A DNA stretch of 64,000 nucleotides from Thermodesulfobium narugense DSM 14796 (GTDB lineage Bacteria > Thermodesulfobiota > Thermodesulfobiia > Thermodesulfobiales > Thermodesulfobiaceae), in contig NC_015499.1 of the NCBI RefSeq assembly GCF_000212395.1, positions 1,499,421 to 1,563,420 of the forward strand, in the 5' to 3' direction. Positions 30,165-31,699 of this stretch are shown here, piece after piece. How positions within the stretch are numbered: position 1 is the stretch's first letter; the number at the start of each line of letters is the position of its first letter. A program made the translations under genes and the position numbers. The notes under the pieces are model-generated. The model had not been told where the DNA came from and made no database searches. It saw only the letters and a program-made list of their open reading frames with translations.

Positions 30165-30593
30165 CTATTTAACCAGAATTACTGGAACCTTTGCATTTTT
30201 TAATATAGCATAAGCAACGCTGCCCAAAAGCCCAGACAAAGGATTTAAACCCTTATTTCCAACCACAATTCTATCAACATTATTTTCTTCAGCATATTTT
30301 AAAATTTCCTTTGCAGGGTCGCCACCTGATATCAGTATAGCCTTTACATTCACTCCACTATTATCAAAAATTTTCTTAGCTTCATCCAATTTTTTTGAAA
30401 AAGCCAAATCACAGGCTTCATTAATCTTCTCTGGATCCACAAAAACATCATCGCTAACATATGTCCAGTCATATGAACAGCCTACTGTCATAAGTATTAC
30501 TTCGACCGATTTGTGTTCCTTTGCCAAATTCAAAGCAAATTCGGCAGCTTTCATTGAGGGTTTTGAACCGTCCACAGCAACTAAAACTTTCAT
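30165..30593 (-). CDS. Universal stress protein (UspA family)
   Basis: 142 residues: KVLVAVDGSKPSMKAAEFAL at the start and DRIVVGNKGLNPLSGLLGSVAYAILKNAKVPVILVK at the end contain the ATP-binding GxxGxxxxxG(S) motif (given here only to identify the region). It is probably an ATP-binding regulator. It lies between the putative selenoprotein gene and ubiD with short gaps. Confidence 0.93.
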   Translation of the reverse strand: MKVLVAVDGSKPSMKAAEFALNLAKEHKSVEVILMTVGCSYDWTYVSDDVFVDPEKINEACDLAFSKKLDEAKKIFDNSGVNVKAILISGGDPAKEILKYAEENNVDRIVVGNKGLNPLSGLLGSVAYAILKNAKVPVILVK

Positions 30594-30615: not shown

Positions 30616-30960
30616 TTAGACTTTTGCCAGATCCATAAGAAGTCTTGGATCCGGATTTACACATAAATATGGAACTTCAGTAACATCATCATAACAAAGA
30701 TCTAAAACATGATCAATTTGACCAAAGTATTTATCTGTAAGGAAATCAATGTACACATTTATTCCTTCTTCCCAAAAAATCAGATCATGCTTAAATTTGT
30801 TAATTTGATCCGGCGTCACTATTCTTGCCTGCAAACTGCTAGGCTCTGGATCTGCTCAAGCACCGCAATATTTTATAGGTGCACTAATTATAATGTAAGC
30901 TGTACCTTTTGTTCTCGCTTGAATAAACTTTTTTGCTTCATTTGTTACTCTTATTTTCAT
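30616..30960 (-). CDS. Candidate selenoprotein with CxxU motif (in-frame TGA)
   Basis: Reading from ATG at 30960 (GGGGAG eight bases upstream) gives 34 codons, MKIRVTNEAKKFI through YCGA, then TGA at 30858-30856, then an unbroken frame to the stop at 30616. Reading TGA as selenocysteine gives a 114-residue protein with C32-G-A-U35. The start resembles HesB/IscA-type small (seleno)proteins; the rest is WEEGINVYIDF and CYDDVTEVPYLCVNPDP. Downstream of TGA, a hairpin fits the bacterial SECIS rules (30827-30844). Without readthrough, only a 34-residue stub or a TTG-started 72-residue piece would be made. It lies between phoU and a stress protein gene. Family name uncertain. Confidence 0.75.
30827..30844 (-). 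promoter_or_regulatory. SECIS-like hairpin after the in-frame TGA
   Basis: GCCTAGCAGTTTGCAGGC folds as a 4-bp stem (GCCT/AGGC), one bulged A, a 2-bp stem (GC/GC) and a five-base loop AGTTT. The loop begins 18 bases after the TGA and has G at its second position, both inside published bacterial SECIS limits. GATCC (30848-30852) and GGATC (30807-30811) could close a longer outer stem. Confidence 0.6.
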
Positions 30961-31039
30961 AATTGCATCTCCCCACTTCAAACTAAAAATCCTTTAGTTT
31001 TTAAGACTAAACTCCCCTCACAGCTAAATTTAATTTCAG

Positions 31040-31699
31040 TTAAGGCTTCATATGCTTTACATTTTTTCCTCTTACAATATACAAAACGTCCTCTGCAATA
31101 TTTGTGGCATGATCCCCCAATCTCTCAAAATGTCTGGTAATAAAAAGCCAATCAATAATTCTCTCACAGTTAAAACGCCTTTCAGCAAGTTCTTTTTTTA
31201 AATTTTGTAGTATATTGTGATAATCCTCATCTACAGCATCATCATCTTCTATTACGCTAAGTGCCATCTCTTCGTTTCTTTCCACAAGTGAGGTAATGGC
31301 ATTTCTAACCATAACCTTTACTTTCTTAGCCATATCAGGAATTTTTTGCATAAAGAGTTCAATTGGAGGATCCTTTAACAAATTTATAGCAGAAACAGCG
31401 ATGCTCTTCGTCTCATCAGACATCCTTTCAAGATCTACTATTATTCTCATAATCATAACAATATATCTAAGATCCCTTGCTACCGGCTGATAAAGCGCCA
31501 ACATAGTCATACACTGTTCTTCTATATCTATCTCAAGTTCATCGGTAATCTTTTCGCTTTCGATGACCTCTTGAGCAATTCTTGAATCCCTTTCCAGAAT
31601 GGAAAGAATTACCAGATCTATCGCTCTCTCTACAAGAGTTGTCATTTCGAAAAGCTTTTTTGTTAATTCCCTGATTTCTATATCAAAATGTCTCTCCAA
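31040..31699 (-). CDS. phoU: Phosphate uptake regulator PhoU
   Basis: 219 residues built of two three-helix bundles, each with a metal-binding E/DxxxD-type motif (ILERDSRIAQEVIESEKITDE region and LVERNEEMALSVIEDDD region), ending ERLGDHATNIAEDVLYIV. PhoU links the Pst transporter to the phosphate sensor kinase. It follows pstB as in most pst operons. Confidence 0.95.
   Translation of the reverse strand: MERHFDIEIRELTKKLFEMTTLVERAIDLVILSILERDSRIAQEVIESEKITDELEIDIEEQCMTMLALYQPVARDLRYIVMIMRIIVDLERMSDETKSIAVSAINLLKDPPIELFMQKIPDMAKKVKVMVRNAITSLVERNEEMALSVIEDDDAVDEDYHNILQNLKKELAERRFNCERIIDWLFITRHFERLGDHATNIAEDVLYIVRGKNVKHMKP

Follow-up and report, generated by a model that had tools for sequence, protein, structure and literature searches.

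Gene structure and genomic context

The window analysed here, a continuous stretch of DNA of 64 kb, contains on its minus strand a small putative selenoprotein gene whose reading frame crosses a single TGA codon. The features of the locus are as follows, the two neighbours being named by our own reading of their sequences:

30616..30960, minus strand: putative selenoprotein gene, 114 codons with selenocysteine (Sec) at codon 35, plus a TAA stop
30858-30856, minus strand: in-frame TGA, codon 35, giving Cys-Gly-Ala-Sec (CxxU), identical in the four species compared
30969..30974, minus strand: Shine-Dalgarno-like GGGGAG, 8 nt upstream of the ATG, by direct reading
30658..30738, minus strand: C-terminal part (codons 75-101), nearly invariant, with Cys89, Cys100 and a Y-L-C-[VI]-NP-like end
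31040..31699, minus strand: next gene upstream, PhoU-like, itself preceded by pst transport genes
30165..30593, minus strand: next gene downstream, universal-stress-protein-like, beginning 22 nt past the stop

Read along the minus strand, the gene consists of an ATG at 30960-30958, 33 further sense codons, the TGA, 79 sense codons and a TAA at 30618-30616, and its translated product has 114 residues. The original prediction had described an ATG with a good ribosome site and a frame with one TGA at codon 35 that continues to codon 115, giving no strand. On the minus strand all of this is confirmed; a plus-strand reading was rejected because that frame is not open. The GGGGAG sequence that would serve as the ribosome site is found ahead of the start codon in the three other species too. 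The TGA lies immediately 3' of the Cys-Gly-Ala codons, so that the predicted C-x-x-U motif is indeed there (C32-G-A-U35). In nine frames of the window, a TGA is preceded by 30 or more codons and followed by 75 or more; such an open frame is thus within chance by itself and was rejected as proof. Regarding the neighbourhood, the order pst genes, PhoU-like gene, focal gene, universal-stress-like gene and UbiD-like gene is kept in all four species, with neighbour names again read from sequence.

A probable SECIS hairpin behind the TGA

The region that follows the TGA can fold into a short hairpin with the features of a bacterial selenocysteine insertion element:

30827..30844, minus strand: SECIS hairpin GCCU-A-GC-[AGUUU]-GC-AGGC, 6 bp with one bulged A (30840), -7.8 kcal/mol
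30833..30837, minus strand: apical loop of the SECIS hairpin, AGUUU, with G as its second base and starting 18 nt downstream of the UGA

The outer stem (GCCU/AGGC) is followed by the bulged A, a GC/GC step and the loop. The distance of 18 bases from the TGA, given earlier for the start of the hairpin, is that of the loop; the stem begins at 11 nt. According to the published bSECIS model, the loop has 3-9 nt and the stem 4-16 bp (PMC13188914 Fig. 2A), a G occupies one of the first two loop bases and is usually followed by G or U, the loop lies 16-37 nt from the UGA, and the minimum free energy is at most -7.5 kcal/mol (PMC13188914). The hairpin agrees with the model in every respect (loop of 5 nt, 6 bp plus the bulge, AGU, 18 nt and -7.8 kcal/mol), as had been claimed for a bulged hairpin with an AGTTT loop under bacterial SECIS rules.

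Of the 2,233 TGAs in the window, just 0.6% reach this standard under a generic SECIS rule. A descriptor (loop A-G-[GU]-U-N, hairpin at most -6 kcal/mol) was built from three other TGA-containing genes of the same genome, namely selD and two paralogues of the focal gene:

G000:C1:1602705-1603628, plus strand: selD (L060), with a TGA in CAGU and an AGGUG-loop hairpin, itself a selenoprotein gene
G000:C1:1870671-1870931 and 1870990-1871232, minus strand: two adjoining CC/Se-motif paralogues (L024, L026, L035)

Both paralogues carry a CxxU motif at an in-frame TGA and a hairpin with an AGUUA loop, which in two of the four species reads AGUUC for one of them. The descriptor matches exactly one of the 2,233 TGAs, that of codon 35. 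It is specific rather than complete, since one orthologue of a paralogue (-3.6 kcal/mol) fails its energy limit. The global folding energy of the region was uninformative (z -0.04). The hairpin sequence is identical in all four species; no covariation was found within the orthologue hairpins, which, being invariant, make this test unusable.

Conservation and selection across the TGA

The protein is encoded in all four genomes of the phylum that were compared, the three other orthologues being 82-89% identical to the query. Each gene has exactly one TGA, at the same place, no other stop, and the frame behind it intact; the homologue check proposed with the prediction thus came out in its favour. 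Among the four species, dN/dS is 0.04-0.18 before the TGA and 0.03-0.09 after it. Purifying selection is therefore similar on both sides, and the 79 residues after Sec are under strong selection at the protein level. Codons 36-42, between the TGA and a TTG at 30834, are also open and conserved. At the nucleotide level, third-position changes affect none of the eight hairpin codons and 58 of the 104 other codons (Fisher P 0.002). The length of the identical-codon run over the hairpin (P 0.05, or 0.23 within amino-acid-invariant columns) was dropped as a weak test, and the third-position contrast was preferred. What decides the matter against chance is that all four species have kept the frame, the TGA and the hairpin together.

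Outside the phylum, no orthologue was found among 286 other genomes, neither with the TGA nor with Cys at position 35. A search of genome contigs gave a single close match, apparently the same contig as in one of the four genomes, and the viral contigs contained no orthologue. Searches for the CC/Se-motif family (NF041239) in three other phyla returned more TGA and Cys members, none resembling the focal group. The gene group is so far restricted to one phylum of anaerobes.

Selenocysteine machinery and probable decoding of the TGA

The genome was searched for the selenocysteine genes, and all of them, as the prediction demanded, are present: tRNA-Sec (74.3 bits, cut-off 47), selB directly behind the tRNA-Sec gene (367 bits, cut-off 242), selA (531 bits, cut-off 268) and selD (323 bits, cut-off 125), the last with one in-frame TGA. 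The three protein genes (selA, selB, selD) were found in all four genomes. The conserved frame and TGA, the selection on both sides, the bSECIS-conforming hairpin, the uniqueness of the descriptor match and the full machinery strongly support the proposed read-through, and the codon 35 TGA is very probably decoded as selenocysteine. SelB with Sec-tRNA-Sec would bind the AGUUU-loop hairpin behind the UGA, and codon 35 would then be decoded as selenocysteine to yield the full-length selenoprotein.

Other explanations account for these observations less well. The TGA could be a true stop that separates a peptide of 34 residues from a protein of 72 residues, the latter restarted at TTG 30834 within the hairpin; the TTG-started frame (30616-30834) is present in all species, and annotation pipelines may call it. 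This TTG, however, has no ribosome-binding sequence, the open and conserved codons 36-42 would be left untranslated, and the presence of hairpin, CxxU paralogues and sel genes would have to be put down to coincidence, which makes the two-protein reading highly improbable. We give the same very low credence to a UGA that is decoded inefficiently and whose role is to switch the downstream universal-stress-like gene on or off according to selenium, not to make a Sec enzyme. In all four species the gene does have the PhoU-like gene on one side and the universal-stress-like gene on the other, with the next gene close behind its stop, but a mere switch would not need the strong selection seen on the 79 residues after Sec. 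Finally, one stop within a frame is what a pseudogene or a sequencing error usually looks like, yet both have practically no chance here and are refuted. The four species, whose genomes were assembled independently and in two cases as a single contig, share the TGA, which rules out the error, and dN/dS far below 1 on both sides argues against a degraded gene.

Relationship to the CC/Se-motif family

The sole meaningful NCBIfam match of the protein is NF041239 (24.8 bits, E 1.7e-5), which is listed as a CxxU selenoprotein family and described as a hypothetical protein (PMC13188914 Table 1). The score stays below the curated cut-off of 40 bits and the match covers model positions 1-64 of 91 only. 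The model matches each of the four orthologues (best E 1e-5), and a profile comparison with 14 NF041239-matching relatives gave a probability of 95% (E 3e-8) and set Sec35 against the Cys/Sec column of the family. Pfam and PDB sequence searches gave no meaningful match. The protein thus shares with NF041239 members both homology and the CxxU motif; because it reaches neither the curated score nor full coverage, the gene is, judged by its sequence, a divergent, sub-threshold relative of NF041239 (a subfamily) and not a plain member. The model match does not extend to the final 40 residues, which include Cys89 and Cys100 and hardly vary within the genus. Members without a TGA have a single conserved Cys, whose place in the alignment depends on the letter used for U. 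With C as that letter it coincides with Sec35; with X it lies a few columns from Sec35 in the focal group but matches the Sec position of several other TGA members.

The genome has three further members of the family. The two adjoining TGA paralogues read CFSU (54.4 bits) and CSTU (28.3 bits), and the second of them, below the NCBIfam cut-off, may also be missed by annotation. The remaining member is:

G000:C1:1155437-1155712, plus strand: fourth family member, without TGA (L015; 88.8 bits), one Cys in the Sec region

The gene neighbourhoods of the paralogues are varied and uninformative. In another phylum (G171, G290, G291, G292; L020, L031-L033), NF041239 members with an in-frame TGA also occur. 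Three of these that were read have CTU or CSU, two have a strong GGUC-loop hairpin, and the neighbourhoods in G171 and G292 include genes resembling phenylacetate-CoA ligase.

Predicted fold and proposed function

A structure model was computed from 18 family sequences (mean pLDDT 73, pTM 0.65), with the Cys/Sec loop among its least certain parts. The top eight PDB fold matches are all of HesB/IscA type, including IscA, YneR, SufA, AQ_1857, a putative Fe-S biosynthesis protein and HI1723. Their probability reaches 1.00, and the matches are weak by E-value (0.008 or worse) and TM (about 0.47). With a model from four sequences, the HesB/IscA family was again the first match. In profile comparison with 25 PF01521 (IscA/SufA/HesB) proteins, the whole group gave a probability of 75% (P 2.5e-5) and the focal group alone a weak match (7%); both alignments, the second being weak, line up the Cys/Sec column with the first of the ligand cysteines. 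In the focal protein itself, PF01521 gave no match up to E 10, and the Pfam gathering score was not reached. The three ligand cysteines C-x(~60)-C-G-C are absent as such: Sec35/Cys32 would take the first place, followed by Cys89 and Cys100 instead of CGC. Taken together, these results make a HesB/IscA-like fold reasonably likely for the modelled protein. The family guess of the original prediction (CC/Se-motif, HesB-like) holds, with NF041239 as the nearest family and a predicted fold that points to HesB/IscA.

The product would be a small, probably cytoplasmic protein with this predicted fold, in which Cys32-x-x-Sec35 sits in the loop after the second strand, at the place of the first ligand cysteine of A-type carriers (by the weak profile alignment). 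Cys32 and Sec35, perhaps together with Cys89 and Cys100, would most likely serve thiol/selenol redox chemistry or the binding of a metal or cluster. We regard a redox role for the Cys-x-x-Sec protein as about an even bet. The four organisms are presumably anaerobes that need to build iron-sulfur clusters, and no PF01521 match was found in any of the four genomes. This leaves room for a substitute carrier and does not itself demonstrate such a role. That the protein and its paralogues are Sec-ligated A-type Fe-S (or other metal) carriers replacing IscA/SufA appears unlikely, and the redox role, the more ordinary reading, is preferred.

Novelty and significance

Selenoproteins as such, SECIS elements and the CC/Se family have all been described before. 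As far as we have seen, two things are new: a subfamily distinguished by its C-terminus and by where its hairpin lies, and the suggestion of a HesB/IscA-like fold for the family. The accessible part of a published account (PMC12013277) counts four known selenoprotein genes in a Thermodesulfobium genome, with no names given there, so the focal gene may be among those detected earlier. Given 24.8 bits against the NCBIfam cut-off of 40, it is plausible that the gene is missing from public annotation. The curated cut-off misses this selenoprotein subfamily, and annotation is therefore likely to split or drop the gene. An otherwise featureless CC/Se-motif family gains a testable structural hypothesis, namely a HesB/IscA-like protein with Sec at the first cysteine of an A-type carrier. 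The presence in one genome of four genes of the family, broadly taken, three of them with a TGA, suggests that the family is important to these anaerobes.

Comparison with known systems

The NF041239 family was first predicted in Moorella thermoacetica. Its members resemble the focal protein over the N-terminal 72 residues or so, which align with conserved Ala9, Ile13 and Pro50, and in the combination of CxxU with a TGA and a SECIS element. In contrast, the focal C-terminus is longer and distinct, and it is here that the near-invariance and the two additional cysteines are found. The placement of the hairpin also differs within the genome, the focal loop lying 18 nt after the TGA and those of the two paralogues 23 nt. 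The selD genes of the same genomes likewise carry a TGA within the frame and, behind it, a hairpin whose loop has five bases (AGGUG), although the SelD protein is unrelated to the focal protein. Regarding HesB/IscA proteins, the NP motif near the C-terminus resembles, by inspection only, their G-F-x-x-x-NPN end; the focal protein differs from them in the absence of a C-terminal CGCG and in the extra Cys32, which creates the CxxU. HesB-like genes with a TGA are found at two loci:

G054:C87:57188-57445 and G083:C23:30008-30247: HesB-like selenoprotein genes (L095, L096)

In these genes the Sec belongs to a GUGGP motif and takes the place that the first ligand cysteine has in A-type carriers.
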